DNA of 64,000 nt from Taurinivorans muris (GTDB lineage Bacteria; Desulfobacterota; Desulfovibrionia; Desulfovibrionales; Desulfovibrionaceae), in NCBI RefSeq assembly GCF_025232395.1, contig NZ_CP065938.1, forward strand, positions 1,736,001 to 1,800,000, given 5' to 3'. The notes under the pieces are model-generated. The model saw only the letters and a list, made by a program, of their open reading frames with translations, did not search any database and was not told the DNA's origin. A program made the translations under genes and the position numbers. The stretch's first letter is position 1. Each line of letters begins with the position of its first letter. Shown here one piece after another: positions 18,157 to 45,633 of this stretch.

Positions 18157-18165
18157 GAGGCATAT

Positions 18166-29743: not shown

Positions 29744-29826
29744 TTCACACCTTACGTATTTATTTTCGATATATTAAGTTAAAATCCGCGCACATGTCAA
29801 GACCAATATTTCTTACATGAATTTGC

Positions 29827-29870: not shown

Positions 29871-29889
29871 AACATTGTATGAGGTTAGT

Positions 29890-30267: not shown

Positions 30268-30296
30268 CAACAGGATTAAATTAAGGAGGACAGCGT

Positions 30297-31298: not shown

Positions 31299-31352
31299 TT
31301 TCAAAAGGGGAATTGTCCCCTTTTGAAAAAGATAAAAAATATGGAGAAGATT

Positions 31353-32342
31353 ATGAGAAAGGTAATAATTTTTAGTTTGCTATCTACTCTTGTTTTTTCA
31401 TTTTTTTCGTTGACGGCTGCTTGGGCGGTAATGCCAATTAAATTGGCACATCCCAATGTTCCCGCAACCCCAATGGGACGAGCTTATGAATTGTTTAAAG
31501 AAGATTTGGAAAAACGTTCCAATGGATTTTTTAAAGTTCAAATTTATGATAGCTCGAAATATGGAAATTTTGATGCAGTAGTCCAAGGTATAAGCATGGG
31601 GGTATTGCAAATGGGTTCTGACGGTATTGGAAATTTTTCTGTGTTTAATGATGCTTTAATGTTATATGATATGCCATTTCTTTTTCCAAGTTATGAATCC
31701 TGTGATCTTGTTGAAGATGGACCTATTGGGTAAGAATTGGCAAAAAGCCTTGAAAAACAAGGTATTATTGGTTTAGGCTATATTGATATAGGTTATAAAC
31801 ATATTTTTAGCAACCGTCCGGTACGTAGTTTGGAAGACGCTAAAGATTTGAAGATTCGCTCAACACATTCAAAAGCACATATCGCTGTTTTACAAGCGCT
31901 TGGAATGAATCCGACTCCAATCGCATGGGGTGAAGTCTATACAACCTTACAGCAAGGTACCGTCGATGGTATTGATATTGACCTGAATTTAGCATATTTT
32001 AATAAATTTCATGAAATTACAAAATATGTGACATTAAGCGGAACGGTCTATACCCCTCACCTTGTTTTGTTTTCAAAGCGTGCTTGGGATAAACTTAACC
32101 CGGAACAACAAGGCTGGATAATGGAATCTTTTAAAGTTATGCAAGATTTTGAGCGGAAGACAAACCGTGCTAACGAAGAAAAGATCATTGCGGAAATGAA
32201 GAAAATGGGGGTTGAAGTTATTGAATTACCTCCAGAGGAAAGAGCTCGTTGGGTTGAAGCGACAAAGTCAGTTTATGAAAAGTTTGCTGATCAAGTAAAT
32301 CAAGAACAATTAAAAAGAGTTCAAGAACTTGTGCAACAATAA
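31353..32342 (+). pseudogene. TRAP transporter substrate-binding protein (DctP family), interrupted by an in-frame TAA
   Basis: Periplasmic solute receptor of a tripartite ATP-independent transporter, delivering a carboxylate- or sulfonate-like substrate to DctQM. Signal peptide at residues 1-25 (start 31353 after GGAGAAG), then IKLAHPNVPATPMGRAYELF. A TAA at 31731-31733 interrupts the frame exactly inside the conserved GPIG-x-EL motif, and the same frame then continues with ELAKSLEKQG to a normal C-terminus. Family members usually have Gln or Lys here, one base from TAA. Nothing else is damaged and both membrane subunits are intact, so the change is recent, an error, or read through. Confidence 0.85.
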
Positions 32343-32389
32343 CCTAAGCCGGAGGAAGATTTTTTCTTTCTTCGGCTTAAGAGGTTTAT

Positions 32390-32863
32390 ATGTTAAAATT
32401 ATTTGATAAAATTGATGAAAATTTATCAGCAATATTTCTGGGTGCAATGACAGTTATTACCGTAATTCAAATCGTATTTCGTTATTTTATTTCTTATTCT
32501 TTATCATGGCCGGAGGAATTGGGACGATATTTGTTTATTGCTGCCGTTTATATTGGAGCAAGTTATGCTGAAAAGGAAAATAAGCATTTAGCAATTACTA
32601 TTTTAAGAACCAACGCAGGAAAATTGTGTGCAAAGTATGTTCCTGTTTTAGCTCAAATTGTGGATTTATTGTTTTGTGTAATCATGACATGGTGGGGAAT
32701 GATTATGACACAATTTGTTTACCATTCAAATCAGTTGGCACCGGCAATTTTAGTTCCTATGTATGTTATTTATGCGGTTTTGCCTTTTGGTATGGGATTA
32801 ATGGCAATTCGGGCTTTTGTGAACTTGATTAAATTTATACAGACGGCAAGAAATGATTTTTAA
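32390..32863 (+). CDS. TRAP transporter small membrane subunit (DctQ)
   Basis: 157-residue protein with four hydrophobic helices, the DctQ architecture. Contains the family block around FRYFISYSLSWPEELGRYLF (near 30-49). It pairs with the DctM permease encoded 20 bases later and with the interrupted receptor gene upstream. GAGG site before ATG. Base composition is distinctly AT-rich compared with the ridA-lyase pair. Confidence 0.93.
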   Translation: MLKLFDKIDENLSAIFLGAMTVITVIQIVFRYFISYSLSWPEELGRYLFIAAVYIGASYAEKENKHLAITILRTNAGKLCAKYVPVLAQIVDLLFCVIMTWWGMIMTQFVYHSNQLAPAILVPMYVIYAVLPFGMGLMAIRAFVNLIKFIQTARNDF

Positions 32864-32883
32864 TGCAAAATTGAGGTGTCAGA

Positions 32884-34155
32884 ATGGAATTACCAATTTT
32901 ATTAGCAATTATTACACTTATTGTTTGTTTAACATTAAGTGTGTCCATCGGCGTTTCTATCGGACTATGTGTTGCGGTTGCTGTGATTGTCGGTGATTTG
33001 CCCGTTGAATTTTTAATGCAGAAGATGTTTAGTTCTTTGGATTCTTTTCCGTTGCTTGCAGTTCCTTTTTTTATTTTGGCAGGTGAAATCATGCAAAAAG
33101 GAAGCATGGCTCAAGCACTTTTAAATATCTCACGGTGCTTGGTAGGTCATATCACTGGCGGTATGGCACATGTTTCTGTTCTTACTTGCATGTTTTATGG
33201 TGCTTTGTCAGGATCAAGTCCCGCAACTGTTGCCGCGGTTGGAGGCATTATGATTCCTGCCATGAAAGAAGACGGATATCCGGAAGATTATGCGACAGCT
33301 GTAAATACTTCTGCTGGGTGTCTTGGAGTGATGATACCTCCTTCCGTTCCATTGATTATTTATGGGACAACGGCTAATGTTTCTGTCGGGGATCTTTTTA
33401 TTGCAGGTATTATTCCCGGGATTTTTGTTGGAATTTTTTTAATGCTGATGAGTTGGTATTTGGCAAAAAAACGTAATTATGGTAATTTGATTGAAAAAGC
33501 TTCCTGTAGGGATACGTTTGATGCATTAAATAAAGCGAAATATGCTTTACTTGTTCCTATCATTGTTTTAGGCGGTATTTATGGAGGAATAACAACTCCA
33601 ACCGAAGCAGGGGCCATAGCGGTTATTTATGCTTTTTTCGTTGAATTTTTTATTTTGAAGACATTGACATTAAAACGTATTATAGAAATTTTTAAAAGTG
33701 CCGCTGTAACCAATGCCGCAATTTTTATTGTTGTTGCGACGGCCACAGCTTTTGGACAATTATTGATGATTTATTCTGTGCCGGATTTGCTTGTTGACAC
33801 ATTATCTGGGCTTGTTTCAAATAAATATTTATTGCTTTTTGTTGTGCTTATTTTCCTTATTATTATGGGAACCTTTATGGACGCGCTTGCCAATATTCTT
33901 ATTCTTACTCCATTGCTGCAGCCTCTTCTTATGAGTGCAGGAATTGATATGACTCATTTTGGCATTATTATGATTGTCGCTTGTGCAATGGGCTTTTTGA
34001 CTCCTCCGGTTGGGGTGAATCTTTTTGTGGGCTGCGGAATTTCTGGAATGAGCATCGAACGGCTAAGTTATGCTGTTTTGCCTTTCTTGGGAGCAATGAT
34101 TGTTGCGTTGTTGCTATTGACTTATATCCCTGCAATTTCATTAATGCTTTTATAA
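32884..34155 (+). CDS. TRAP transporter large permease (DctM)
   Basis: 423-residue inner-membrane permease with about twelve helices, the normal DctM size. Family motifs include GALSGSSPATVAAVGGIMIP (near 103-122), IPPSVPLIIYGTTANVSVGDLFIAGI (near 151-176), GGITTPTEAGAIAV and the late FLTPPVGVNLFVGCGISGM. Uses the sodium gradient to import the substrate bound by the DctP receptor. The DctP-Q-M order is conserved. A 174-bp gap with no terminator separates it from the unknown gene at 34330. Confidence 0.95.
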   Translation: MELPILLAIITLIVCLTLSVSIGVSIGLCVAVAVIVGDLPVEFLMQKMFSSLDSFPLLAVPFFILAGEIMQKGSMAQALLNISRCLVGHITGGMAHVSVLTCMFYGALSGSSPATVAAVGGIMIPAMKEDGYPEDYATAVNTSAGCLGVMIPPSVPLIIYGTTANVSVGDLFIAGIIPGIFVGIFLMLMSWYLAKKRNYGNLIEKASCRDTFDALNKAKYALLVPIIVLGGIYGGITTPTEAGAIAVIYAFFVEFFILKTLTLKRIIEIFKSAAVTNAAIFIVVATATAFGQLLMIYSVPDLLVDTLSGLVSNKYLLLFVVLIFLIIMGTFMDALANILILTPLLQPLLMSAGIDMTHFGIIMIVACAMGFLTPPVGVNLFVGCGISGMSIERLSYAVLPFLGAMIVALLLLTYIPAISLMLL

Positions 34156-34329
34156 GAATTTGGTGAAAATTTTATACTGGTTATAGTGACTTATTGGATT
34201 TTCTTTGTTTTTTTAATTGAACCTGATAGCCTAATGTGAATTTTTATAATGGTTTTATAGTGATAAAAGTTTGCATTGGGCTGTTTTGTATTGTATTAAT
34301 GAAAAAAAGTAGTATTAATAAAGGTAACT

Positions 34330-35553
34330 ATGGATTTTACTGCTATTGAAATAAAACCCGCCAAGATCGCTCTTATGGGGCACAATGGAGTTGGGCATGC
34401 CGTAAGCCATTCCGGTTTTAGACAAGATGATTCTTATGGGTTTGCAATGCTTGTGAATATGTTACAATTATGTGTTCCTCTTGATTTAACAATTAAAAAT
34501 ATTTGGACGGATACTTATGGTATTGAAATTGAACTTATTTGTGGAGGAAGAGCAAAAGCTTATGTTCGGCGTGGTGTGAGCTTTGCAGAGAAAGAACTAT
34601 TAAAAAATGCTCTTGGCTTATCTTCGTATGCTCCGCAAAATTTGGCAATGAAGATTTTTGGAAGAATATACGGACAAGGTGTAAACGAAGTTTGTTCTGC
34701 TTTTAATTTAGCTTATTCTAAAGCGATATTGGATAGTTACAGAACGGCATGGACAGAAACGCATTATGCGGAAGATACCATTTCAAATAGTGCGGGAGCA
34801 TTTCTGGCTGGTTGTATGCGTATGAATGGACAAGTTGTTGCATGGATGCTGACGGTGAATGCAGGGCAGGGAGGACTTGGTCCCATTGAAGATTCTGAGG
34901 GAAATATTCCTATAGGCAGCAAGGGTGAAATCATGCAAAAAATGGGTATGGATACTATCCCTACCATTGTTCTTGAAAGTCGTGCGTATGTGCCTGCTCT
35001 ATCAAAGGGTTTGAAAGAAGCGAGTTTTTGGGTTCGTTGGAATAAAGAGTATGATAATAGTGTTGTTGGAAAAGCCTTGGTACAGGTTCTAAAAGAAGAA
35101 AGCTTACCCTATGTATTTTCTGATGATGCTTATATGCGTAATGATTTAAGCCTTGAGAAGGAGAGTGAAAGAATTGGACAATGTCTGATTGAACTGGGAA
35201 AACAATATAAGCAAAGTCAAACTTCTGCAGAACGGGTTGAAATTGCAGGAATTTTAGCACAGCTTGTTTCTGAAGATATGGGTGGAAGTATTTTTATGAG
35301 CAATAAACTTTTTGCATTAACAGCGGGTGGAGGCTTATTTCCCGGACTTGCCGCAGTTTTTTCAGTGCTTGTTCCATATTCTGAGTATGTCGTTACGCAA
35401 CAAATTGATTATAGAAAAAAGGAAATTGAGCAATCCGCCTTAGTTCTTGTAAAAGCAATTCAATATATTCTTGAACATTACGCAGAAACTTTGGAAGAAA
35501 TCAAACGGAAAAGAATGGTGATTTCTTCTGTCGAGTTATTGCAATTAAGCTGA
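34330..35553 (+). CDS. unrecognised 407-residue cytoplasmic protein linked to the TRAP cluster
   Basis: I do not recognise the family. The protein has no signal or membrane segment. Distinctive stretches are MGHNGVGHAVSHSGFRQDDS near the N-terminus, a central SNSAGAFLAGCMRMNGQVVA, then MLTVNAGQGGLGPIEDSEG (Gly-rich loop, near 180) and IPTIVLESRAYVPAL, and a C-terminal SNKLFALTAGGGLFPGLAAV. Conserved-looking Gly and Asp/Glu residues suggest an enzyme. It follows dctM in the same orientation with a similarly AT-rich composition and ends the cluster, so it may act on the transported compound. An enzyme of amino- or sulfo-acid breakdown is possible but unproven. Confidence 0.75.
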   Translation: MDFTAIEIKPAKIALMGHNGVGHAVSHSGFRQDDSYGFAMLVNMLQLCVPLDLTIKNIWTDTYGIEIELICGGRAKAYVRRGVSFAEKELLKNALGLSSYAPQNLAMKIFGRIYGQGVNEVCSAFNLAYSKAILDSYRTAWTETHYAEDTISNSAGAFLAGCMRMNGQVVAWMLTVNAGQGGLGPIEDSEGNIPIGSKGEIMQKMGMDTIPTIVLESRAYVPALSKGLKEASFWVRWNKEYDNSVVGKALVQVLKEESLPYVFSDDAYMRNDLSLEKESERIGQCLIELGKQYKQSQTSAERVEIAGILAQLVSEDMGGSIFMSNKLFALTAGGGLFPGLAAVFSVLVPYSEYVVTQQIDYRKKEIEQSALVLVKAIQYILEHYAETLEEIKRKRMVISSVELLQLS

Positions 35554-35672: not shown

Positions 35673-36110
35673 TTAGTCAACAGCAACCATGCTGAGGTTA
35701 TATTCCACTTCCATTCCGGCTTCCAAGGAATAGGTCAGCAAAGAGCCGTCAAGCATGTTTTCTTCGACCTTTTTATAAATATCGCGGTATTTTTCTTCAA
35801 GACCGATTTCAACATCAAGAATAAGCACGGAATAACGGGTTCTCATCGCGTGGTCTTTTTCTTTTTCCGTATCGGCAGAAGCGCGGATGAATTTTATTTC
35901 CGCTCCGTTTCTTTTGAGGGAATTGGCAAAGGTGTTGATGTAACAAGCCAGCGCCGCAACGCAAAGAAACCGTTGTCCCGTGTGGTCTTGGTTTCTTTCC
36001 TCGTCGGATACCGCATTGAAATTGAACTCGATTTTCGGCAGAATAACGGAGTTCACGTTATAGGTGTCAATACCTTTTTCCATGTCACGTTCAAAAGTGA
36101 TTTTCGGCAT
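35673..36110 (-). CDS. OsmC-like protein lacking the second catalytic cysteine
   Basis: 145-residue OsmC/Ohr-fold protein. The helix carrying the first reactive cysteine is present (FLCVAALACYINTF, C50 and C56), but where OsmC peroxidases have the second Cys in a CxV-type strand, this protein reads DGSLLTYSLEAG. It therefore cannot run the normal dithiol peroxidase cycle and may bind or relay sulfur or a ligand. Start at MPKITFER follows AGGAGA; an in-frame ATG 20 codons earlier is ignored. Last gene of the minus-strand set with dsrF-like, dsrE-like and dsrH-like genes. Confidence 0.75.
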   Translation of the reverse strand: MPKITFERDMEKGIDTYNVNSVILPKIEFNFNAVSDEERNQDHTGQRFLCVAALACYINTFANSLKRNGAEIKFIRASADTEKEKDHAMRTRYSVLILDVEIGLEEKYRDIYKKVEENMLDGSLLTYSLEAGMEVEYNLSMVAVD

Positions 36111-36141
36111 GGCATTCTCCTTGATGAATTTAAAGATGAAA

Positions 36142-36474
36142 TTAAAAGTGATTGATTGTTTCAGCGTCAAGACAGAGGTCTGTGATTTCGTCTTCTTCTA
36201 TGATTTCAATGCCTTCAATGATGTCCTTTTCGTCAATGCCGCGCAGTTCGAGACATTTTTTCCTGCAATAAAGGGGAGCGTCGGCGTCCAGCAATTTTTG
36301 TATCATGGCAGCATGGTAGCCTGATTTTTGGGTTGCGCACCAAACCCCTTCTTCGGAAAAAACGAGTTTGACATCGAAACCTTTTTCATGACACGCCCAA
36401 GCCATTCTGATTCCCAGGGCGGAGAGCTCGACCCCCAGGGGCTTCGTATCAAAGATAACAAAAGAATTTAACAT
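36142..36474 (-). CDS. DsrF/TusC-like sulfur relay protein
   Basis: 110-residue DsrE-superfamily protein. It opens with the characteristic strand SFVIFDTKPLG and helix, followed by a Cys-containing CRKKCLELRGI (C70, C74) at the place where DsrE/TusD-type proteins carry the persulfide cysteine, and DIIEGIEI after it. Start is set at MLNSFVIF behind an AGGAG site; an upstream in-frame ATG would overlap the preceding gene. Part of an H-E-F triplet, the order-shuffled equivalent of dsrEFH/tusBCD. These complexes pass persulfide sulfur to DsrC- or TusE-type acceptors in the cytoplasm. Confidence 0.75.
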   Translation of the reverse strand: MLNSFVIFDTKPLGVELSALGIRMAWACHEKGFDVKLVFSEEGVWCATQKSGYHAAMIQKLLDADAPLYCRKKCLELRGIDEKDIIEGIEIIEEDEITDLCLDAETINHF

Positions 36475-36485
36475 GGTTCGCTCCT

Positions 36486-36884
36486 TTAGTGCCCAATGGT
36501 GAGAAAAACATCGGAAGTCATTAAAAATTTGGTGAACGTTCCCCCTATGTCGCCCCATTGTATATTGCCGGCATAAGGATACGCTTCAATTCCGCGTGCA
36601 TGCTCATTGGTATGGCAGGTGGAAATATTCGCTCCCAGTTCGCCGAGTTCGATTAACTTTTTAATAACTTTGTTTTTTTCAATATGGTCTATGAGCGTTT
36701 GATTGATATGCAGATCTCCGGTAATCGGAGTTTCCGTTTTGGAAAGATTGACAGCATTGCCGAATAAATAAATATTTACTTTGTGTCCCTTTGCAAGAAC
36801 TGCTTTTGCCAATTTTACGGCTGTAAGGGCATCTTCGTTTTCGGCAGCTCCGGAAGTGAGCATGATGGTAAGTGTTTTCGCCAT
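36486..36884 (-). CDS. DsrE/TusD-like sulfur relay protein
   Basis: 132-residue DsrE-superfamily protein with an N-terminal TLTIMLTSGAAENEDALTAVKLA strand-helix unit and a likely persulfide cysteine at C90 in ISTCHTNEHARGI, aligned with the active Cys region of DsrE/TusD (C followed by an ARG helix). Its C-terminus (FTKFLMTSDVFLTIGH) ends on the usual hydrophobic strand. Stop codon and the next ATG are 11 bases apart, so the genes are coupled. Probably forms a heterohexamer with the H-like and F-like neighbours. Confidence 0.8.
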   Translation of the reverse strand: MAKTLTIMLTSGAAENEDALTAVKLAKAVLAKGHKVNIYLFGNAVNLSKTETPITGDLHINQTLIDHIEKNKVIKKLIELGELGANISTCHTNEHARGIEAYPYAGNIQWGDIGGTFTKFLMTSDVFLTIGH

Positions 36885-36895
36885 GGCAATTTCCT

Positions 36896-37174
36896 TTATA
36901 ATGAAACGACTTGTTCGTTATCAAATAAAATATCGGCAATTCGGGCATAGCTGACCGTTTCGCAAGTATCGCTCACTGCAATGTTTCTTGCCTCTATGGC
37001 TTCTTCTTCCGCATAAATTTCTTCAACGTTTAACGCTTCAAATTGTTTTTGCCAATATTCCGCGGCAAAGCATACGCCATCGCCAACGAGCAAAAGGATT
37101 TTATCTTCATCGCCGCCGGCAAGAGCAAGGCGCTTTATGAGCGACGGATTGGATTTATTGATAAAAAACAGCAT
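36896..37174 (-). CDS. DsrH/TusB-like sulfur relay protein
   Basis: 92-residue protein of the DsrH/TusB type. It begins MLFFINKSNPSLIKRL, has ILLLVGDGVCFAA (the GDGV turn typical of DsrH), an acidic helix with EARNI and a C-terminal YARIADILFDNEQV. Cysteines at 35 and 71 are extra to the usual pattern. AAGGAGG site. First gene after a strong hairpin, so it may be transcribed at a lower level than the hydrolase pair upstream or from its own start. Confidence 0.7.
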   Translation of the reverse strand: MLFFINKSNPSLIKRLALAGGDEDKILLLVGDGVCFAAEYWQKQFEALNVEEIYAEEEAIEARNIAVSDTCETVSYARIADILFDNEQVVSL

Positions 37175-37257
37175 GGAAGACCCTCCTTGTCATAGGGGTA
37201 TTGTTTTCATCCGCTTGTTATAAAAGAAAAAGGGAAGGGGTGTTTTTGAATAAAACG

Positions 37258-37289
37258 GTACCCGCATTTGTGAAAACAAATGCGGGTAC
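37258..37289 (-). terminator. 14-bp hairpin between the hydrolase pair and the DsrH-like gene
   Basis: GTACCCGCATTTGT-GAAA-ACAAATGCGGGTAC, a perfect 14-bp stem with a tetraloop, eight bases past the stop. On the minus strand the following GTTTTATTC is only a moderate T run, so partial termination (an attenuator) or an mRNA stabiliser is as likely as a full stop. Confidence 0.65.
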
Positions 37290-37296
37290 GGATTGA

Positions 37297-37836
37297 TTAT
37301 GCGCAGTCGTGTTTATCCCATGGTTCCCTGTTGTCACGGGCGATAACGGATTCCATGCGGCTGATCGCTTCTTTCAGTTTGTTGATTTCGGAAATTTTGA
37401 GGTTCGGGTCTTTCATCATTTGATATAAAATGGCGCCGGTACATTCTGCCGTAATCGGCAAATCGGTGATGTTGGCGATGGTCACGTAAATATCTTGGGC
37501 ATTGACGGCACGGTTCACCGCACCGGCTTTATTGTTTACGCCGTGTCCCCAAAATGCCGCGCCCTTATCGGAAACCACAACAACAAGGGTTCTGCGGTCA
37601 ACGTTTTCAAGAATCACATCAATATTGCCGTCTTTTGTGTATACGCAAGCCTCTCCGGCTTCAAGCGCCTTTACAGCCTCATCGCAGCTTGCGATGCTTT
37701 TGCCGTAGCCTGCGACAAGGGTTTCCAAACCGTTTGCATCCGCTTGTGCGAAGGTTGCGCATTTTTTACCGAATTTACTGTCCGCGTCAAATGCCACAGC
37801 ATTTGAGAAAATGATAATCGCTTTTTTTTCAGCCAT
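37297..37836 (-). CDS. small protein resembling the C-terminal part of alkaline-phosphatase-superfamily enzymes
   Basis: 179 residues, cytoplasmic. Residues ~80-155 look like an AlkP-superfamily C-terminal core: DRRTLVVVVSDKGA stands where active enzymes have a SDHG motif (His replaced by Lys), then FWGHGVNNKAG and QDIYVTIANITDLPITAE. The tail DI-x-x-T...T-x-x-P...G-x-I-x-YQ...PN matches, position for position, the last 35 residues of the large hydrolase encoded just upstream, indicating common origin. The N-terminal half (IIIFSNAVAFDADSKFG) carries no nucleophile motif. Likely a pseudoenzyme or partner subunit; function inferred only. Confidence 0.55.
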   Translation of the reverse strand: MAEKKAIIIFSNAVAFDADSKFGKKCATFAQADANGLETLVAGYGKSIASCDEAVKALEAGEACVYTKDGNIDVILENVDRRTLVVVVSDKGAAFWGHGVNNKAGAVNRAVNAQDIYVTIANITDLPITAECTGAILYQMMKDPNLKISEINKLKEAISRMESVIARDNREPWDKHDCA

Positions 37837-37857
37837 GATATTTTTCCTTTTTTGATA

Positions 37858-39744
37858 TTATACTAAGTTTGGATTTTCTAAGATTTGATAAATCGGACCG
37901 CCTTCGGCATCGGCAGGAACAGGATTTCCCGTCACATAGCAAAGGGTCGGAACAATATCTGCAAGCCAGCGCGGACGTTCGTAACGGAAGCCTTTTTTCA
38001 CATTGGCGCCGTAGAACATGAGCAGGTTTTTAAGGCTGCCGCATCCTGATTCGCCGGTCGGGAAACCGTAGCCGTGTTCCGCCATATATTCGGGTTTCAA
38101 AGCGTAAACAACGTCACCTGCTTGCGCCCCGCCCATACCGAACACATGGGCGTCTTCTTTGCGTACCGCCAAAAGCACGGGACGTTCACCGGTTTCAGGG
38201 TGTTTGTAATCAAGCAGGGCGTCGATGATTTGGTCGCGCACTTTTTCGTAATCTTCAGCTTCCACAATGCCGCCGGGGTACTTGCCTTTCAGGTTCACGT
38301 AAACGAACATGTAGCGCTGCGGAACGGCGACTGATTTTGAAACGTCGAGAACATAGTCGAAACCTTCCGTTTCTTCGTAAATATCCCAATAGTTTTCTGA
38401 TTTTTTCGGCTCGTAAGAACAAAGCCCGGCTTGTTTCAAGGCATGCGCCGTATTGAGAATCGGTCCGATGGGGGTTGCTCCGTGGTCGGAACAGATGCAG
38501 GTTATGCAGTCGTCACCGAAAGCGTCGAGCAGGCGGCCAAGCATCGTGTCTTCAATTTCGTAAATCTTCCGTTCGAGGGTGCGGGCGTTTTTGCGCTTTT
38601 CAGGGTCTTCGCTGTCAATTTCATGGAGGAAGCCGTGATAGAACCAGTCAATGGGGTGGGAATGCATATAGAACAAATCCCAGTCGGGGTTTTTCTTAAG
38701 CAGTCCGTCCACCACATTCCAAAGCCAATCGCTGTGGAATTGGACGAGTTCGCCGACGGTTTCAAGGTCGATGACCTTATGCATGTAAGCGACCAAGCCG
38801 ATGTCGTTTGCCGTGATTTGCTTGGAAAGGTCGATACCGTCCATGGCGCCTGCCGGAGCCACCCAGCCGAGATGTCCGGCGATACCGGACACATACAGGA
38901 GGAAATCTTCCGCGTCTTCTGAAAGTTTCATCAATTTGCAGCGGAACGTGCCTGTTTCCATGCGTCCGTCTTCGGCGACTTTGAATTCATGATTGATAGG
39001 AGCGCTCCATTCACGGTTTTTAATGGTGCAAAACGCCTTGCCGTAATCGCGTTCCGGGCAAAGGGCGACGGTATCGTAGCCGTCACCGTTCATATCAAGC
39101 GCAAGAACATACCAGACTTGGTCTTCAAGAGGGTCCATGCAGTCACGGAATTTAATGGTTACTTCCATTTCCAGCGGATCGTCTTCGCTTTCGGGAAGAT
39201 TCGCCCAGCCTTTCGCCCTGTCGAAGCTGCCTTGTGAGCCCATATGATAAAAATCCGTGGAGATGACACTTTCGGAAGCTAAAAATTCCTTGTGTTCGTT
39301 ACCGACCAGCGGCCAGCGTTTTTCAATGGGAGAAATGCCTTGTCCCATGACCATGACGCCGTGCTGCATTTTGGAGGGCCAGGAAACGGGATAGTTTACG
39401 ACAATGGATTTTTTGCCGGCTTTGTCCCATGCGTCCCAAATGGTTTCTGCGGTGAGAATATCGGAACCGAAAGCCTGGGTTGTTTTTTTATGTTCAAGGC
39501 TTTCGCCTTCCATATAGTAATAATAGTCTTCGATACCATGGGTGCGGGGATATGCTCCGGTGCAAATGGTCGCCCATGAGGGAGGCGTTACCGTCGGAAG
39601 GTTGAATCCTTCGGGAATATAGCTGCCTTGTTCCATCACACGGCGGAAGTTTTTCAGTCCGCCTTCTGCGAGCATCGCTTCAAGACGTTTGGGAATTAAA
39701 CAGTCAAAACCGATAAGGGCCGCTTTTTTTGCTTTGCTTGCCAT
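37858..39744 (-). CDS. alkaline-phosphatase-superfamily hydrolase (phosphodiesterase/nucleotide pyrophosphatase type)
   Basis: 628-residue enzyme without signal peptide, hence cytoplasmic. Metal and catalytic motifs: D14 in LIGFDC, nucleophile T53 in PTVTPPSWATICTGAYP, D366 and H370 in HSHPIDWFYHG, D420-H421 in CSDHGAT. The last family His (normally in a GxHR- or HG-type turn before the final strand) seems replaced by the SGCGS turn at C568. The superfamily hydrolyses phosphate or sulfate mono- and diesters and phosphonates. Start at MASKAKKAA follows AGGAGA. It sits 21 bases before its small partner and 58 bases behind a sigma-54 type promoter. The substrate may be what the nearby BCCT carrier imports. 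Confidence 0.8.
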   Translation of the reverse strand: MASKAKKAALIGFDCLIPKRLEAMLAEGGLKNFRRVMEQGSYIPEGFNLPTVTPPSWATICTGAYPRTHGIEDYYYYMEGESLEHKKTTQAFGSDILTAETIWDAWDKAGKKSIVVNYPVSWPSKMQHGVMVMGQGISPIEKRWPLVGNEHKEFLASESVISTDFYHMGSQGSFDRAKGWANLPESEDDPLEMEVTIKFRDCMDPLEDQVWYVLALDMNGDGYDTVALCPERDYGKAFCTIKNREWSAPINHEFKVAEDGRMETGTFRCKLMKLSEDAEDFLLYVSGIAGHLGWVAPAGAMDGIDLSKQITANDIGLVAYMHKVIDLETVGELVQFHSDWLWNVVDGLLKKNPDWDLFYMHSHPIDWFYHGFLHEIDSEDPEKRKNARTLERKIYEIEDTMLGRLLDAFGDDCITCICSDHGATPIGPILNTAHALKQAGLCSYEPKKSENYWDIYEETEGFDYVLDVSKSVAVPQRYMFVYVNLKGKYPGGIVEAEDYEKVRDQIIDALLDYKHPETGERPVLLAVRKEDAHVFGMGGAQAGDVVYALKPEYMAEHGYGFPTGESGCGSLKNLLMFYGANVKKGFRYERPRWLADIVPTLCYVTGNPVPADAEGGPIYQILENPNLV

Positions 39745-39802
39745 GATTGTCTCCTTTGATAAATTTGCCATAGCGTATGATAAATCTTTTGTTCTTTTTA
39801 TA

Positions 39803-39817
39803 TCAAGAAGTATGCCA
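39803..39817 (-). promoter_or_regulatory. candidate sigma-54 promoter before the AlkP-type hydrolase
   Basis: Minus strand TGGCATACTTCTTGA, against consensus TGGCAC-N5-TTGC. The -24 GG and spacing are exact; the -12 GC is GA. It lies about 60 bases before the start codon, with two palindromic activator-site candidates further upstream. Confidence 0.5.
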
Positions 39818-39912
39818 AAGGCGTTTTGCCGTTGTTTTTAGGGAATAAACGGAGTTCATTTTTCTTTTTTCATGGTTTAAACGGTTTTTTGTGAAAATAA
39901 TGTGATAAAAAA

Positions 39913-39926
39913 CGACAAATATGTCG
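39913..39926. promoter_or_regulatory. activator-site palindrome UAS-1
   Basis: CGACAAATATGTCG, inverted repeat CGACA-N4-TGTCG, about 96 bp upstream of the -24 element of the hydrolase promoter. One of four copies in the window, all in the two long intergenic regions flanking the sigma-54 activator gene set. Confidence 0.65.
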
Positions 39927-40105
39927 CGTATTGTCGAAATAAGAGGAGATTTTTCTGTTTTTGAAAACAAGTGCGCGTCATTTTTGACGTATTCTTTATG
40001 GATATTAATAAAAATAATGTGGATATGTTATTATAATTATATAATATAGCAGGTGAATTTTTGTAATTGAATGATTTGTCCGTATTTTAGAAATAAAATT
40101 GTAAG

Positions 40106-40119
40106 CGACATTTATGTCG
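40106..40119. promoter_or_regulatory. activator-site palindrome UAS-2
   Basis: CGACATTTATGTCG, about 290 bp upstream of the same promoter. Between UAS-1 and UAS-2 the DNA is very AT-rich (39990-40060), suited to bending. A related inverted repeat CGTCA-TTTT-TGACG lies at 39976-39989. Confidence 0.65.
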
Positions 40120-40132
40120 TACTATGGAAATA

Positions 40133-40163
40133 AAAAAAGGCATTGCCTGTGCAACGCCTTTTC
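40133..40163 (-). terminator. terminator after the first OsmC-like gene
   Basis: AAAAGGCATTGC / GCAACGCCTTTT stem with one mismatch, followed on the minus strand by TTTTTTTATTT. It separates the OsmC gene from the hydrolase transcript. Confidence 0.8.
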
Positions 40164-40185
40164 AATTTGAATGGCTCATGCCCGC

Positions 40186-40617
40186 TTAGTCGTCATATTC
40201 GGCTTCAAGTTTATAGGTCATGTGTATTCCCTCATGAACGGAACCGGTAACCAAGCAGCCGTTTTTCATAATTTTTTGGCAGCGTTCGAAAATGGAATCG
40301 TCTTCGCCGTCCATTGCGACTTTCACGTCTAAATTGATGCCGGTGACGCGTGCCTGCTTGTTTTCATTATGCCCCAAATCTATGTTCGCAATGCCTTCTA
40401 TTTCCGTGAAGTTTGCCCCGCGGGCGGTCAGCGCGCTTCCCAAGGTTGCGATGTAGCAAGCTAAATTGGCGGCGGAAAGAAGGGATTTCGCAAGTCCTGC
40501 CCTTTGTTCTTCCGGGATTTTATCGTAATCGATGATGATGTTGTCTATTGCGGGAATGCCGAAATCAATGGTGTGAACGTTTCCTTTGCGTGAATACTTT
40601 ACAATAGGTGCTGACAT
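40186..40617 (-). CDS. OsmC-family protein with both cysteines
   Basis: 143-residue OsmC/Ohr-fold protein. First cysteine on the central helix in NLACYIATLGS (C54), second in KNGCLVTGSVHEG (C121), so the thiol pair needed for hydroperoxide reduction or thiol/sulfur transfer is present, unlike the paralogue at 35673. AAGGAG ribosome site. A sigma-54 type promoter lies about 90 bases upstream, and a terminator follows, giving a one-gene transcript inside the cluster. Peroxidase is the default family function; the sulfur-relay setting suggests a thiol-transfer alternative. Confidence 0.82.
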   Translation of the reverse strand: MSAPIVKYSRKGNVHTIDFGIPAIDNIIIDYDKIPEEQRAGLAKSLLSAANLACYIATLGSALTARGANFTEIEGIANIDLGHNENKQARVTGINLDVKVAMDGEDDSIFERCQKIMKNGCLVTGSVHEGIHMTYKLEAEYDD

Positions 40618-40706
40618 AAGATACTCCTTAACAATTTACAGTGCCTCAAAAAATTTATAGTGTTTTCATACGGTATGGTGTTTCTATAAATTTAGAGTAT
40701 CTTATA

Positions 40707-40721
40707 GCAAAAACTGTTCCA
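40707..40721 (-). promoter_or_regulatory. candidate sigma-54 promoter before the first OsmC-like gene
   Basis: Minus strand TGGAACAGTTTTTGC, against TGGCAC-N5-TTGC: GG and GC elements and the spacing are all exact, with one mismatch in the -24 hexamer. Located between the activator stop and the OsmC start. Confidence 0.6.
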
Positions 40722-40759
40722 AAGGAATTGGAGTGTCCTATGGCAAACTCATTCAAATT

Positions 40760-42157
40760 TCATTTTATTCCGAACTGCTTTATTTTTCTTTGCAGCGTTC
40801 TTAAATTCATGTCGAGGCATTCCGCGCACTTAGCCGTATTTCCTTGATTTTGGGACAGGGATTTCATAATGATTTGCCTTTCAAACTCTTCCGTTGCCTC
40901 TTTGAAAGAAAGCGTATTGGCGGTCAGATTCATTAAGAAACTGTCTTCTTCGGAAAAATGCAGGCTTTTGAGCGCGTCTTCGCCAAGAAACAGGTATTTA
41001 TCCAAAAAATTATGCAGTTCCCGCACATTGCCGGGCCAATGATAGTTTTGCATGGCTAAACGGACTTTCAGCGGCAGCGTGATTTTAGCATTTTTGCGTT
41101 TGAAATAATTTTCAACCAAAAGGAATAAGTCATTTTCCCTTTCCCGCAGCGGGGGCAGATGAATTTCCAGCACATTAATCCGGTAAAAGAAATCCGAACG
41201 CATGTTTTTTTCCTGCACCATTTGGTTTAAATCCCTATGCGTCGCCGTGATCAGACGAAAATTGGAATTTTTGGGCGTGTTGCTTCCCAAAGGCGTATAG
41301 GTTCTGTTTTCCAGCGTGCGCAAAAGTTTCACCTGCAAATTGAGGGGGATTTCCCCTATTTCGTCTAAAAAGAGCGTGCCGTTGTCGGCGGCGGCGATGA
41401 AGCCTTGTTTATTGGCGTAAGCGCCGGAAAAAGAACCTTTCGTATGTCCGAAAAATTCACTTTCCATAAGCTGTTCGGGAATAGCCCCGCAGTTGACGGG
41501 AACATAATCGCCCTTTTTGCCGCTGTATTCATGAATGGCTTTTGCAACCAAGTCTTTTCCGCAGCCGGTTTCTCCCAGTATGATGACATTCATATCGTTT
41601 TCAGAAGCTTTCATAATGAGTTCATAAACATTTTGCATGGCTTTGCTTCTGCCGATAATGCGTCCCAGGCCGTTCGCCTGCTCTATCGAGGCTTTGAGCT
41701 GTTTATTTTCTTCCTGCAATTCCAGTTCATTGAATTTTTCTTCGGAAATATCCATGATTACTCCCTTGTAACCGATGATATTTCCTTGCTTGTCATAATC
41801 GCCCGCACCGATGTCCCAAACCCATTTCAAAAGCCCGCTCGCGAATTTTATGCGGTATTTCATTTCATAGGACTTATGCTCCCTCACTTGGTCATAGCTG
41901 TAATTATGGGTTCTTTTTACATCGTCCTCCGTCATTAAATGTTCAAGCACGTTTTTATTTTGTTTTATAAATTCGGCTGCGGAAATGCCCACAAGCTCCA
42001 TGCAGCCCTTGCTCGCGTATTCCAAAATAAGGGAATAATCATACGGATTGTCCGTTTTTGAGGGAATGAATTTGCAATAATAAGCCAAACCCGGCAGAAT
42101 ATCGAAAATATTTTTTTCAAACTCGCTGAAATAATTGCCGTCTCTGTATTGTACCAT
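40760..42157 (-). CDS. PAS-containing sigma-54 activator (enhancer-binding protein)
   Basis: 465-residue bacterial enhancer-binding protein. A PAS sensor occupies about 15-140, then the AAA+ domain with Walker A GETGCGKD (195-202), the sigma-54 contact loop GSFSGA (241-246; usual form GAFTGA), Walker B LFLDEIGE (near 265) and the arginine-finger region FYRINVLEI. A C-terminal Fis-type helix-turn-helix (425-465) ends NLRTLQRKIKQFG. It hydrolyses ATP to open sigma-54 promoters, presumably those found before the OsmC, hydrolase and BCCT genes. No receiver domain, so it is controlled by ligand or redox at the PAS rather than by phosphorylation. It follows the BCCT gene and its terminator. Confidence 0.93.
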   Translation of the reverse strand: MVQYRDGNYFSEFEKNIFDILPGLAYYCKFIPSKTDNPYDYSLILEYASKGCMELVGISAAEFIKQNKNVLEHLMTEDDVKRTHNYSYDQVREHKSYEMKYRIKFASGLLKWVWDIGAGDYDKQGNIIGYKGVIMDISEEKFNELELQEENKQLKASIEQANGLGRIIGRSKAMQNVYELIMKASENDMNVIILGETGCGKDLVAKAIHEYSGKKGDYVPVNCGAIPEQLMESEFFGHTKGSFSGAYANKQGFIAAADNGTLFLDEIGEIPLNLQVKLLRTLENRTYTPLGSNTPKNSNFRLITATHRDLNQMVQEKNMRSDFFYRINVLEIHLPPLRERENDLFLLVENYFKRKNAKITLPLKVRLAMQNYHWPGNVRELHNFLDKYLFLGEDALKSLHFSEEDSFLMNLTANTLSFKEATEEFERQIIMKSLSQNQGNTAKCAECLDMNLRTLQRKIKQFGIK

Positions 42158-42204
42158 AAAATTCCCGCCTTTTTTCCAGTATATAGAAGAAGAGTGTGTT
42201 AGTA

Positions 42205-42237
42205 AATAATAAAAAAAGCCGGTATCGAGCCGGCTTT
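42205..42237 (-). terminator. terminator after the BCCT gene
   Basis: AAAGCCGG / CCGGCTTT stem with a 7-base loop and TTTTTTTATT on the minus strand. Confidence 0.88.
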
Positions 42238-42269
42238 CTTCTTTTTGGCGATTATGAACAAAATATTTT

Positions 42270-43832
42270 TTATCGGCAGTCTGTCACTTCGTCCAGTTTG
42301 TCGCCTTTGAGCATTTTTATCCATGCGTAGGCAAGGAGGATGACAGGAATGCAGATGAAAATACCCGCCAGCTTGCCAAGCATTTTTGCAACTTCAAGCC
42401 CGCCCATGGTAAGGGCTCCGAAAGCGAGCAAGCCTTGCAAAAGCGCCCACATGACCAAATTGTATTTGTTGGGATCGTCGTTGACTCCGATTCGTTTGGT
42501 TGCTGTTGCCGCCATGATGTAACAGCTTGAATTGATGCTTGTTGCCAGGAAAATGGTTGAAACCATCGCATACACGATAAAAACCACGGTGCTGAAAGGC
42601 AGCGTGTCAAAAACTTCCGCCATGAGGGCGGCGCCGCCTTGCTTCACCAAAATACCCGTAACGTCAATGATGTTGTTGTGTGACAGGTATAAGGTGTAGG
42701 AGCCAAGCACGCCATGCATGCAGTAACCGCCAAGAACCGCGAAGAACAAACCGCAGCCTACGATTTCCCTGACCGTTCTTCCGCGGGAGATCCTTGCAAT
42801 GAATAAGCCCATGAAAGGTCCGTAGCCCAGCCAGTTCATGGCATAGAACATTGTCCAGTCCTGGGGCACGGTTTGGTCGGTGAACGGGTCCGTCCAAAGG
42901 ATATAGGTAAGGAAGTTGTTGGCTGTTCTGCCCACGGCGTTGGTGAACGTATCGAACAATGTGGCTGTCGGACCGCACAAGAAAACATAAATGAGCAAAG
43001 CAAACGCCAAAAGCACGTTGAGGTCGCTTACTGTTTTAATTCCTTTTTTCAAACCGAAATAAACGCTGACGGCGGAAATGGCGATAGTCGTGAGTAAGAT
43101 TTTGCCTTGCAGGGCGAGGGAAGGTTCAAAGCCTGTCACTTTGCAGATGGTCGCTTCCACGGTCGGCAGGGAAAGGCACATGGTCATTGTCGTACAGAAC
43201 ATCAGACCCAAAATGAAGCAGCAGTCCAAAAATCTGCCTAGGAATTTGTCTTTGCGTTCGCCGATGACAATTTCAGAAGCCGCGCTCACACGCAAAAGAG
43301 GCTGTCTTCTGATGTGGAACATATAGCAGATAGGCAAGGCGCAGATGAAATAAGAGCTCCATGCTGTGGGGCCCCAGTTTAAAAGAAGGAAACTTAGGCT
43401 GAGGTTGTACGCCTCCACGCTTTCGGGCGCCGCATTCATAGGGGGCGTCACCAAATACCATGAGGGTTCGACAATAGCCCAGAACATGCATGCCCCTGCA
43501 ACGCCGGAGGTGAAAATCATGGCAGCCCAGGAACCAAGAGGAAATTCGGGTTTTTCGTCAGGGTCGCCAAATTTTATGTCGCCGTATTTGCTTATGGCGA
43601 AATAAATGAGCATGAAAACAAAAATCGTCACAAGCCATAAAAACGAACTGCCCAATGCCTTGTTCAGCGGGTTCACAATGCCTTTTAAAAAGGCTTCCAT
43701 TTCCGCGCTGAAAAAGATTGCAGGCAAGCTGACAAGCAATAAAACAAGAACAACCGGCAAGGCAATTGATTTTTCAACGCATAAATCATTTTCATCCAAT
43801 GGTCTGCAAGTGAAATCGTCGTCTTTTGCCAT
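42270..43832 (-). CDS. BCCT-family transporter with a modified aromatic box
   Basis: 520-residue, twelve-helix secondary transporter of the betaine/carnitine/choline family. The signature FIARISRGRTVREI (344-357) and first aromatic motif NWGPTAWSSY (152-161; Trp153, Trp158, Tyr161) are present. In the second aromatic motif the usual FYWAWWISW reads FYAMNWLGY (329-337), so two of the three Trp that cage trimethylammonium in BetP are Asn333 and Tyr337. A substrate other than glycine betaine is likely. No long C-terminal osmosensing tail. Start at 43832 (MAKDDDF) follows GGAGG; the 18-codon upstream extension is ignored. Divergent from the EamA gene, with two activator palindromes between. Confidence 0.92.
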   Translation of the reverse strand: MAKDDDFTCRPLDENDLCVEKSIALPVVLVLLLVSLPAIFFSAEMEAFLKGIVNPLNKALGSSFLWLVTIFVFMLIYFAISKYGDIKFGDPDEKPEFPLGSWAAMIFTSGVAGACMFWAIVEPSWYLVTPPMNAAPESVEAYNLSLSFLLLNWGPTAWSSYFICALPICYMFHIRRQPLLRVSAASEIVIGERKDKFLGRFLDCCFILGLMFCTTMTMCLSLPTVEATICKVTGFEPSLALQGKILLTTIAISAVSVYFGLKKGIKTVSDLNVLLAFALLIYVFLCGPTATLFDTFTNAVGRTANNFLTYILWTDPFTDQTVPQDWTMFYAMNWLGYGPFMGLFIARISRGRTVREIVGCGLFFAVLGGYCMHGVLGSYTLYLSHNNIIDVTGILVKQGGAALMAEVFDTLPFSTVVFIVYAMVSTIFLATSINSSCYIMAATATKRIGVNDDPNKYNLVMWALLQGLLAFGALTMGGLEVAKMLGKLAGIFICIPVILLAYAWIKMLKGDKLDEVTDCR

Positions 43833-44129: not shown

Positions 44130-44281
44130 TCAATGAAAAGATTTTATCGTTCTTTTTGGAACAAAGTCCTTTCATTATTCCGATATATATAATGAATACA
44201 GCGGAAATTCGGACTTTTCGGGGGGTTTTCGCTTGGCATAATTTTTGCTTTTTTTTATGGCAAATATTTGCAGAGGTGCTT

Positions 44282-45343
44282 ATGGGGTCAGAAATACTCA
44301 CTCAAACAAATTTTGTCAAAACAGCGGAAAGGGCGGCGGAACTGCGTGAAAAAAAAGATTTGCTCTTTGCCAAAAAAGGTTTGGTTCTTGGCATAATCGG
44401 CGGTATCACGTGGGCGGTATCAAGCGTTTTTCTTTTGGGCATGGGGGTTAAAAGCGGTGCCTTCGCACAGCCTGAATATTGGCTTGTCGCTCCTTTTGCG
44501 GCTGCGGGTATTCATGATTTTTGCGGCGCAGTCACATCTTTGGCAGTCAATGCTTACAGAGGGCAATTGAAAGAAATTCCCCGAACCATTAAAAATAAAG
44601 CCGGCAGGCTTTGCATGCTCGGCGGATTTTTGGGCGCGCCTTTCGGAATGGGAGGGTATTTGATGGCTGTTTCCTTAACCGATCCGGCGTATGTTTTGCC
44701 GATAACTTCCCTGTACCCCGCTTTTGCGGCTATTTTGGCAATGGTCTTTTTAAAGGAAAAAATCATCGGAAGAGCATGGATCGGTTTGCTCGGCTGTATT
44801 TTGGGCGTGTTCATCATCAGTTTTGTCGCGCCTTCCGGCGGCGGGTCCGAATATTTTTATTTAGGTTTGCTTTTCGCCGTTGTCGCCGCCTGCGGCTGGG
44901 CCTGCGAGGGCGTTGTGGTGACCTCCGGAATGGATTTTGTCGAACCCGGCATTGCATTGAACATTTATCAAATGACTTCCGCATGCATTTACTGGTTCAT
45001 TCTTATTCCGCTTGCCTGCCATTTCACGCTGCCTGCGGATATGGGTTATTTTTCAGCTATCCAAGGTTTTTTAACCAGTGACAAACTATACCTTGTCATG
45101 CTTGCGGGGATTGTGGGGGCTTGTTCCTATATGTGCTGGTATAAGGCGATGAATACGACAGGGGTAAGCCGTGCCATGGCTTTGAACATCACCTATGCAC
45201 TATGGGGCGTGGTTTTGAGTGCTGTTTTCCTGGATACGGAGATTACCGTAAATCTTGTCATCGGTGCTGTCGTGATTTTCTCTGGCATGGTTCTTGTTAT
45301 CGGAAATCCTAAAGACATTGTCAATTTGCGGCAAGTGGGCTAG
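44282..45343 (+). CDS. EamA/DMT-family permease
   Basis: 353-residue membrane protein with ten helices in two EamA repeats preceded by a 40-residue charged cytoplasmic segment (ERAAELREKKDLLFAKKG). First repeat ends ...YVLPITSLYPAFAAILAMVFLKEK, the second ...GVSRAMALNITYALWGVVLSAVFL, both typical. Start placed at 44282 (MGSEILTQ) after AGAGGTG, because the longer frame would include regulatory palindrome UAS-4. It diverges from the BCCT gene, so export and import may be co-regulated. A small winged-helix gene follows 23 bases later. Confidence 0.85.
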   Translation: MGSEILTQTNFVKTAERAAELREKKDLLFAKKGLVLGIIGGITWAVSSVFLLGMGVKSGAFAQPEYWLVAPFAAAGIHDFCGAVTSLAVNAYRGQLKEIPRTIKNKAGRLCMLGGFLGAPFGMGGYLMAVSLTDPAYVLPITSLYPAFAAILAMVFLKEKIIGRAWIGLLGCILGVFIISFVAPSGGGSEYFYLGLLFAVVAACGWACEGVVVTSGMDFVEPGIALNIYQMTSACIYWFILIPLACHFTLPADMGYFSAIQGFLTSDKLYLVMLAGIVGACSYMCWYKAMNTTGVSRAMALNITYALWGVVLSAVFLDTEITVNLVIGAVVIFSGMVLVIGNPKDIVNLRQVG

Positions 45344-45366
45344 CTTCGGGCAAACGGGGAGAAATT

Positions 45367-45633
45367 ATGAAACATCCGATCAGATTGGAAATTTGTAAAT
45401 TGTTGGATATGCATGCTTCGCTCACAACACGGGAAATTCAGGATTTGCTCTTGCAGTCCCACCCCGGTGAAAAGCAGGTTTATGCCGCCGATGAACATGT
45501 TTTGTCTTTGCGTGCTGTCGGCATTGCGGAGCTTGTGGAAGAATGGGTTGAGGACGCCGGCGAGGGGGAAATGCTGATGCAGCGCTGGCGGCTGACTAAA
45601 TTCGGCAGGGAAAAATACCGAAAATATTGGTAA
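45367..45633 (+). CDS. small winged-helix protein
   Basis: 88-residue protein made of one helix-turn-helix/winged-helix unit: MKHPIRLEICKLLDMHASLTTREIQDLL resembles the first helices of ArsR-type regulators, then a wing region ending WRLTKFGREKYRKYW. No metal-binding cysteine or ligand domain. It is the second gene of a probable operon with the EamA permease (GGGAG site) and could control it. Family assignment is by pattern only. Confidence 0.65.
   Translation: MKHPIRLEICKLLDMHASLTTREIQDLLLQSHPGEKQVYAADEHVLSLRAVGIAELVEEWVEDAGEGEMLMQRWRLTKFGREKYRKYW

Follow-up and report, generated by a model that had tools for sequence, protein, structure and literature searches.

A conserved gene set in Taurinivorans muris

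What is the purpose of a run of genes that brings together an importer of the BCCT family, an enzyme of the alkaline phosphatase (AlkP) superfamily, two OsmC-like proteins and three relatives of the sulfur-relay proteins DsrE, DsrF and DsrH? Such a run lies on the minus strand at 35673-43832 of the window, the whole stretch of 64,000 nucleotides (43.5% GC) analysed here, which comes from a T. muris genome consisting of a single contig of 2.17 Mb. A previous interpretation made from the letters alone (the sequence-only reading) had described nine genes in a row, and suggested that a zwitterionic, possibly sulfur-containing compound is imported and cleaved and its sulfur passed on. Open reading frame (ORF) calls and family scans located all nine genes, and comparison with other genomes demonstrated that they form a real, conserved unit. 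The unit proved to be larger than had been described, reaching past the nine genes to a divergent EamA gene and a small gene at 44282-45633. The suggested import, cleavage and passing on of sulfur is supported in part and fits the evidence better than the rival explanations weighed below; the compound itself we infer, tentatively, to be a sulfo-ester such as choline-O-sulfate. The genes of the unit are as follows (NPP, nucleotide pyrophosphatase/phosphodiesterase).

42270-43832, minus strand: BCCT-family importer (PF02028, E 1.3e-115; an alternative longer start at 43886 is possible)
40760-42157, minus strand: PAS and sigma-54 activator, the likely regulator of the cluster (PF00158, PAS_3, HTH_8), kept beside the cluster in relatives
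40186-40617, minus strand: OsmC1, a two-cysteine OsmC (PF02566)
37858-39744, minus strand: AlkP enzyme with an NPP-like two-metal site and a Thr nucleophile (PF01663; alternative start 39771)
37297-37836, minus strand: smAlkP, 179 amino acids, AlkP fold with a C-terminal Cys tail; proposed sulfur or sulfo carrier
37303-37305, minus strand: codon of the invariant penultimate Cys178 of smAlkP
36896-37174, minus strand: DsrH/TusB-like subunit (PF04077, 27.8 bits)
36486-36884, minus strand: DsrE/TusD-like subunit with invariant Cys90 (PF02635)
36142-36474, minus strand: DsrF-like subunit without a conserved Cys (PF02635, 43.5 bits)
35673-36110, minus strand: OsmC2, a single-cysteine OsmC (PF02566, E 0.003, under the gathering score)
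44282-45343, plus strand: EamA/DMT-family transporter, possibly an exporter, conserved with AlkP
45367-45633, plus strand: small conserved protein 3′ of the EamA gene, no family match

The probable starts are 39744 for AlkP, 36474 for DsrF and 36110 for OsmC2, and intergenic gaps of 414 bp and 122 bp precede AlkP and DsrH respectively, so that transcription as one unit is no more than possible.

Conservation of the unit

AlkP relatives were found at E <= 1e-20 in 16 of 149 related genomes (numbered G below; loci are numbered L). Fourteen of these 16, the window genome included, are of the BCCT type, with AlkP identities of 62-100%; G032 holds only a 42% paralogue, and G107 a distant AlkP of 28% identity. 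The recurrent neighbours of AlkP were BCCT, smAlkP, the PAS/sigma-54 regulator, OsmC, EamA with its small gene, and DsrHEF. The gene-neighbourhood survey that the sequence-only reading had called for thus excludes the outcome that the orthologues never co-occur elsewhere. Gene order varies between genomes, and it therefore seems that the unit is kept together by selection.

A wider collection was scanned as well; of its 171 matches the best 80 were used, and these added 75 loci that carry record titles. Fifty-three loci were over threshold, and leaving out six of TRAP or Chloroflexi type gave 47 of BCCT type or of a second, Tau type. Many of the 47 are cut by contig ends and some duplicate genomes of the first set; among the matches listed for them were smAlkP in 41, BCCT in 32, OsmC in 24, CutC above 900 bits in nine and a Tau-type binding protein in six. 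In the phylum as a whole AlkP is rare, occurring in 8 of 395 evenly drawn genomes.

A cysteine tail on an AlkP fold

smAlkP has no Pfam match. Its structural model, with a predicted local distance difference test score (pLDDT) of 93.5, falling to about 67 over the last nine residues, nevertheless aligned with AlkP folds, as the earlier description of a small AlkP relative had it: Z was 11.0 over 140 residues, to ENPP4, and 10.1-10.5 to choline sulfatase. The structure matching listed AlkP folds only, and residues 144-179 were barely covered. The SDHG metal motif is lost in 13 of 13 aligned smAlkP rows. The end of the protein, EPW(D/E)KHDCA, is identical in 42 of 43 called ORFs and its penultimate Cys is invariant; the smAlkP of L070 could not be read to its end. 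smAlkP shares the penultimate C-terminal cysteine (...HDCA) with DsrC/TusE but does not belong to the DsrC sequence family. DsrC, too, carries its penultimate cysteine on a flexible arm at the C-terminus; in smAlkP this design stands on a fold unrelated to DsrC.

The same tail terminates AlkP itself in the TRAP-linked loci L031-L033, and is also fused to AlkP in L083, L084 and L093, the model of the L084 protein giving the tail at low confidence. The AlkP of L081 (Dehalococcoidia) ends in KHECA, that of L082 has the variant tail HHDCI, and that of L087 has none. In L086 the tail is missing seemingly only through an apparent frameshift. An apparent tail on the AlkP of L094 was rejected as a chance HDC and not the motif. 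Searched for as a DNA pattern, the tail gave 16 matches in 14 of the 149 genomes, each in smAlkP or in a tail-bearing AlkP, and the reversed pattern, used as a control, gave 0. Among the matches listed for L051 is a second OsmC-DsrHEF set with smAlkP and without AlkP, which is what is expected if smAlkP partners the thiol module. We propose from these sequence patterns that smAlkP is a dead AlkP that would act as a cysteine-tailed carrier of a sulfur or sulfo group. Whatever the substrate, a strict Cys tail on an AlkP fold that lacks its metal motif is unusual, the more so as a fused tail on the enzyme can take its place.

The AlkP active site

Residues D23, T62, D375, H379, D429, H430 and H566 of AlkP, a Thr nucleophile and six metal ligands, are invariant in 17 of 17 aligned rows. 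T62 aligns with the Thr of phosphonoacetate hydrolase (PhnA), which reads Ala in 3t02. A formylglycine motif, which we take to be C/S-x-P-x-R, was looked for at the nucleophile and is missing, PTVTPPSW standing there. The model of the tail-fused homologue of L084 (pLDDT 90.6) best matched NPPs (Z 32.5, 2.6 Å, 340 residues). ENPP6 (Z 31.3), a choline-specific glycerophosphodiesterase, ENPP7 and PafA were near matches. NPP-type sites prefer singly charged esters, a class to which sulfate monoesters belong. A promiscuous sulfatase activity of such a phosphodiesterase is the subject of a title in the reference list of PMC5870055.

Several distant AlkP paralogues in L092 and L094 (Moorella, a Bacillota genome) alternate with methylthioadenosine-salvage genes, the MtnA- and MTAP-type genes of L092 being identified by family scan and the other salvage genes of the two loci by eye. 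This AlkP branch may possibly have an unrecognised role in methylthioadenosine salvage.

Two thiol modules accompany AlkP

The DsrH, DsrE and DsrF genes stand in tandem at 36142-37174 and score over the cut-offs of PF02635 or PF04077. Cysteines at persulfide positions had been attributed to all three products. This holds for DsrE, whose Cys90 is invariant in 14 of 14 rows and stands at what we take to be the known DsrE/TusD active-site position; no conserved cysteine was found in the aligned rows of DsrH and DsrF. All three score below the Tus equivalog cut-offs (37.7 against 49.2 for TusB, TIGR03011; 18.2 against 94.2 for TusC; 25.2 against 89.3 for TusD). The two OsmC-like proteins described earlier are both present, and only OsmC1 has both catalytic cysteines. 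The second Cys was found in 26 OsmC1 rows, one further row being truncated, and is replaced by Ser in 14 of 14 DsrHEF-linked copies of OsmC2, which is therefore not expected to go through the peroxidase cycle of OsmC.

Six of the 149 genomes, all of them AlkP genomes, hold DsrE of this family, and ten hold OsmC1-type OsmC (at least 178 bits), nine of them AlkP genomes; G072 has an OsmC match of 82 bits and no AlkP. Among the 15 genomes with AlkP at 42% identity or more, nine hold OsmC1 and six hold OsmC2 with DsrHEF. The two occur together in the window genome only, and neither was found in the fragmented G138. Two thiol modules thus accompany AlkP in Desulfovibrionales and rarely coincide, single-cysteine OsmC with DsrHEF or two-cysteine OsmC.

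The two-cysteine OsmC mostly comes with a dihydrolipoyl dehydrogenase (Lpd) and a GcvH-like protein, which follow OsmC1 in many loci. The GcvH-like protein of L023 scored 138 bits against the gcvH cut-off of 116, the lipoyl lysine is present in 22 of 22 such proteins (21 by pattern, one by eye), and 18 of 21 called Lpd ORFs have the motif GGTCxxxxC. The sole Lpd over cut-off in the window genome stands 1.2-2.6 kb beyond the left end of the window, 1.4 kb away from a second GcvH; OsmC1 is about 40 kb from the pair. Another GcvH of this genome sits between GcvT- and GcvP-like genes (by eye).

188-586, minus strand: the second GcvH, perhaps a lipoyl module of OsmC1 that has been displaced

Lipoylated proteins have been reported to reduce OsmC and Ohr (PMC3469484), and DsrE3A and TusA to carry Cys-S-thiosulfonates (PMC4175335). 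In L084 (a Desulfarculus metagenome-assembled genome, MAG) OsmC and a DsrH-like part, the latter recognised by eye, share one frame of 286 codons at 3922-4782. Distant AlkPs adjoin thioredoxin and a thioredoxin-reductase-like protein, in L034 together with a TRAP importer. Since several AlkP branches are paired with some dithiol system, a reductive step is indicated, acting on a group bound to cysteine.

In L106 (Desulforamulus aquiferis) a distant AlkP whose frames look broken was seen with thioredoxin, a thioredoxin-reductase-like protein, TRAP genes and a BCCT gene.

Importer exchange and the link to CutC

The BCCT protein scored 387 bits to its family profile, and its nearest solved chain is named DddT (334 bits, against 206 for CaiT). 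DddT is a transporter of dimethylsulfoniopropionate (DMSP). An intact aromatic box was sought and rejected: at the positions that we presume to form it the box is only partly kept, leaving quaternary-ammonium specificity unproven.

In a tree of 43 hand-picked AlkP tips, which left out L092 and L094-L109 among others, six Tau-type tips formed a clade (support 1.0) nested among the BCCT-type AlkPs (supports 0.98 and 0.998). The clade consists of Deltaproteobacteria MAGs, for which a termite-gut origin is only suggested by labels and is unstated in the records. L066 encodes an ABC importer of TauC-, TauA- and TauB-like proteins, and the other five Tau-type loci were recognised by clustering and profile; among solved structures TauA is the one closest to the binding protein (E 4.5e-41). 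The nesting of this clade indicates that the importer was exchanged while the enzyme and the tail stayed. A compound accepted by both kinds of importer would be expected to combine an ammonium group with a sulfo group.

CutC, the choline trimethylamine (TMA)-lyase, exceeded its cut-off of 1050 bits in 11 of the 149 genomes, and the 14 BCCT-type AlkP genomes account for eight of the 11 (Fisher 8.9e-8; within-genus shuffling expects 4.2, P 0.00024). The window genome reached 685 bits, below that cut-off. Among the matches listed, CutC, CutD and a small multidrug-type exporter are near the cluster in several loci. The order in L116 is AlkP-smAlkP-BCCT-Reg-OsmC-Lpd-GcvH-CutC (Reg, the regulator), and L123, a contig without AlkP, reads Reg-OsmC-Lpd-GcvH-EamA-small gene-bacterial microcompartment shell protein-aldehyde dehydrogenase-CutC-CutD. 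Taken together, the importer exchange, the CutC link and an AlkP chemistry suited to esters suggest choline-O-sulfate as the simplest natural compound that would satisfy all three.

Sigma-54-like sites

Sigma-54-like sites scoring at least 10 were counted upstream of genes in the relatives, with shuffled upstream regions and intragenic stretches as controls. They precede 30 of 49 OsmC genes (7 of 245 shuffled, 1 of 47 intragenic), 23 of 40 BCCT genes (3 of 200 and 0 of 39) and 6 of 19 EamA genes (1 of 95 and 0 of 19); the upstream sequences are kin, and the counts are not independent. No signal was found before AlkP (6 of 63, against 11 of 315 shuffled), smAlkP (1 of 54) or DsrH (1 of 14). A general consensus scan of the window barely beat chance, with 17 sites against 10.8 expected and 3 of 100 shuffles reaching 17; the excess became visible only in the comparison of upstream sequences among relatives. 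Two sites in the window belong to the unit.

40706-40722, minus strand: sigma-54 (-24/-12)-like site upstream of OsmC1, score 11
44233-44249, plus strand: sigma-54-like site upstream of the EamA gene, score 11, 32 bp from the start

In the window no such site precedes BCCT, AlkP, DsrH or the second GcvH; the Lpd of this genome has one of score 9. The sites, together with the conserved sigma-54 activator in the cluster, argue for coupled expression.

A proposed pathway and its rivals

The reading that we favour, tentatively and with considerable doubt, is that the unit takes sulfur from a zwitterionic sulfo-ester and delivers it by way of the cysteine tail as sulfite to Dsr; choline-O-sulfate is the best candidate for the ester, a related amino-alkyl sulfate another. 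BCCT, judging by its family, would import choline-O-sulfate. In the cytoplasm the conserved Thr62 of the NPP-like AlkP would attack the sulfate ester and free choline, which would go to CutC where that is present or may leave through the EamA transporter. The sulfuryl group would pass from Thr62 to the penultimate Cys178 of smAlkP as Cys-S-SO3-, a step suggested by the tail and its fusion to the enzyme. Reductive release as sulfite would be carried out by OsmC1, itself reduced by dihydrolipoyl-GcvH and Lpd, or by OsmC2 with DsrHEF, as the alternation of modules and the cysteine pattern suggest; the thiosulfonates of DsrE-type proteins (PMC4175335) offer a precedent. The Tau-type clade would need some other reductant. 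Dsr would then reduce sulfite to sulfide, and a sulfite route through DsrAB and DsrC has been proposed for T. muris from expression data (PMC10507020). Should the carried group be a persulfide, the architecture would stand and the substrate would change.

Such a route would avoid sulfate activation, and for a genome that lacks Sat this would be important. T. muris LT0009 has no Sat or QmoAB and does not grow on sulfate (PMC10507020), and in our profile search of the 14 BCCT-type AlkP genomes Sat was missing from the window genome, G004, G045 and G075. As a marker of the cluster the absence of Sat was rejected, since only these four of the 14 lack it. According to PMC10507020, dsrEFH of T. muris are among the genes whose functions "remain enigmatic", and the DsrEFH proteins were undetected when the cells had taurine, sulfolactate or thiosulfate for growth; the terms BCCT, choline and alkaline phosphatase are missing from its main text. 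The failure to detect DsrEFH would fit a cluster that was never given its own substrate.

A wider reading, possible and more doubtful still, is that sulfidogens respire sulfate esters without sulfate activation, AlkP-bound sulfuryl passing to the Cys tail of a dead AlkP and being released as sulfite by lipoyl, DsrHEF or thioredoxin thiols. If so, the TRAP-type clusters would handle other esters, the ATP of Sat and Apr would be saved, and with CutC one molecule would yield both sulfide and trimethylamine.

Several observations weigh against choline-O-sulfate delivery through these thiol proteins. The aromatic positions in TM8 of BCCT are altered and its nearest solved relative is DddT; the Tau-type binding protein scored 206 against the taurine equivalog cut-off of 304; and in 6 of 29 tips of the BCCT/Tau clade neither importer was seen at the locus. 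The window genome and five others of the 14 AlkP genomes lack CutC, and G040 is the only DsrHEF-type AlkP genome with it. Sat is present in 10 of the 14. To our knowledge choline sulfatases use formylglycine, the motif for which AlkP lacks. The ties to the thiol modules are also incomplete. G043 (L125) holds OsmC1 and Lpd without an AlkP match in its genome, this DsrE family is missing from nine of the 15 AlkP genomes (eight of the nine hold the two-cysteine OsmC), and among the matches listed for L081 and L087 AlkP has neither DsrHEF nor OsmC nearby. A prediction that the Tau-type genomes would hold OsmC or DsrE elsewhere failed, with 0 of 6 for each, although both queries do match within the 149 genomes. 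In these six genomes AlkP, smAlkP and the Tau-type importer stand without any OsmC or DsrE of the families in question, so that the thiol modules are not obligatory partners, and this result slightly lowered our confidence both in choline-O-sulfate delivery and in the wider reading. On the sequence patterns, the constant core appears to be importer, AlkP and cysteine tail, with a reductant that is exchangeable or not needed.

The same relay could instead act on another zwitterionic sulfur compound, such as thiotaurine, a taurine-like sulfonate or thiosulfonate, or a DMSP-like betaine, with a persulfide on the tail handed through OsmC2 and DsrHEF to DsrC. Persulfide transfer is the classical role of DsrE-type proteins, the Tau-type importer with its TauA-like binding protein points to sulfonates, and the relationship to DddT and the altered aromatic positions of BCCT would suit such a substrate. 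We nevertheless regard it as rather unlikely: the CutC link is left without explanation, AlkP chemistry fits esters better than C-S or S-S bonds, and taurine in T. muris runs through Tpa-Ald-Xsc (PMC10507020). The CutC link is accounted for if AlkP, acting as a phosphodiesterase or phosphatase, splits a choline phosphoester and so supplies CutC with choline, while OsmC, lipoyl proteins and DsrHEF do separate redox work. The NPP-like fold with ENPP6 among its matches agrees with this, as does the lack of OsmC and DsrE of these families in six AlkP genomes. It would leave without explanation the cysteine tail, found also on AlkP, the restriction of this DsrE family to AlkP genomes and the Tau-type importer, and we consider it unlikely.

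The cysteine tail is equally unexplained if AlkP is an ordinary sulfate-ester hydrolase that releases free sulfate, the thiol proteins being accessory. Sat in 10 of the 14 AlkP genomes and the Tau-type genomes without thiol modules would be in keeping with this, but without Sat the window genome could not put free sulfate to use in respiration, and we judge it improbable. Finally, uptake of an osmoprotectant beside peroxide defence by OsmC, the genes being neighbours by chance, would fit the BCCT and OsmC families, which are often osmo-induced. Conserved co-occurrence, transporter exchange, common sigma-54-like sites and an OsmC2 without its second Cys make this very improbable.

If sulfur delivery from a sulfo-ester such as choline-O-sulfate is correct, the unit would bring in a carrier protein of a new kind for sulfur groups, together with a source of sulfite from organic sulfate that requires no ATP, and would connect hydrogen sulfide with trimethylamine, both of them medically relevant products of the gut. 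It also gives the enigmatic dsrEFH of T. muris a context. In the literature searched, which included few subscription papers, we found no description of the gene combination or of choline sulfate in these bacteria. The single families are known; the proposed carrier, the module alternation and the gene combination are new within that literature, in agreement with the sequence-only reading, which knew of no described pathway with such genes.

Other features of the window

A separate organosulfur cluster at 29087-35553 adjoins the nine-gene set. It contains the D-cysteate sulfo-lyase CuyA (525 bits, cut-off 450), a TRAP transporter, a GntR-type regulator and a 407-amino-acid protein without a family match, which we take to be a CyuA-like cysteine desulfidase. 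By eye we also recognised DsrMKJOP-like genes at 13828-19347, a gene at 59600-61375 that resembles those for adenine-specific DNA methyltransferases of the type III restriction kind, and three tandem chemoreceptor-like genes at 5845-13384. The last have near-identical signalling halves and differing sensor halves, a sequence pattern that suggests gene conversion.

Comparison with known systems

The unit resembles DsrEFH/TusBCD with DsrC/TusE in having three tandem DsrE-superfamily genes, an active-site Cys in DsrE and a candidate carrier with a penultimate cysteine. It differs in that its three proteins score under the TusB, TusC and TusD cut-offs, the carrier candidate has an AlkP fold and is not DsrC, the nine genes include neither DsrC nor TusA, OsmC2 goes with DsrH, and most of the AlkP genomes lack this DsrE family. 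The sHdr pathway with its lipoate-binding protein LbpA (PMC6067878) likewise combines a lipoyl carrier and DsrE-type proteins in sulfur chemistry. No hdr-like cluster was recognised among the ORFs of our loci, which were named for selected families only. The one lipoyl protein scored, that of L023, exceeds the cut-off for gcvH, and OsmC is the constant neighbour.

SoxYZ and SoxB share with the unit a near-C-terminal cysteine carrier and a metallohydrolase acting on a carrier-bound sulfur group, but the folds are unrelated, and Sox is periplasmic and oxidative whereas the cluster is cytoplasmic and probably reductive. The choline sulfatase BetC (PMC5870055) is also of the AlkP superfamily, and choline-O-sulfate would be a common substrate; BetC uses formylglycine, whereas the AlkP described here has a Thr nucleophile, a two-metal NPP-like site and a partner carrier. 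The 3′-phosphoadenosine 5′-phosphosulfate (PAPS) and adenosine 5′-phosphosulfate (APS) reductases place a sulfuryl group on a C-terminal-tail cysteine from which a dithiol frees it as sulfite, as proposed here, although their substrate is an activated nucleotide sulfate and their fold is unrelated. The choline TMA-lyase (cut) clusters adjoin the unit in several relatives, whereas the window genome lacks CutC itself.

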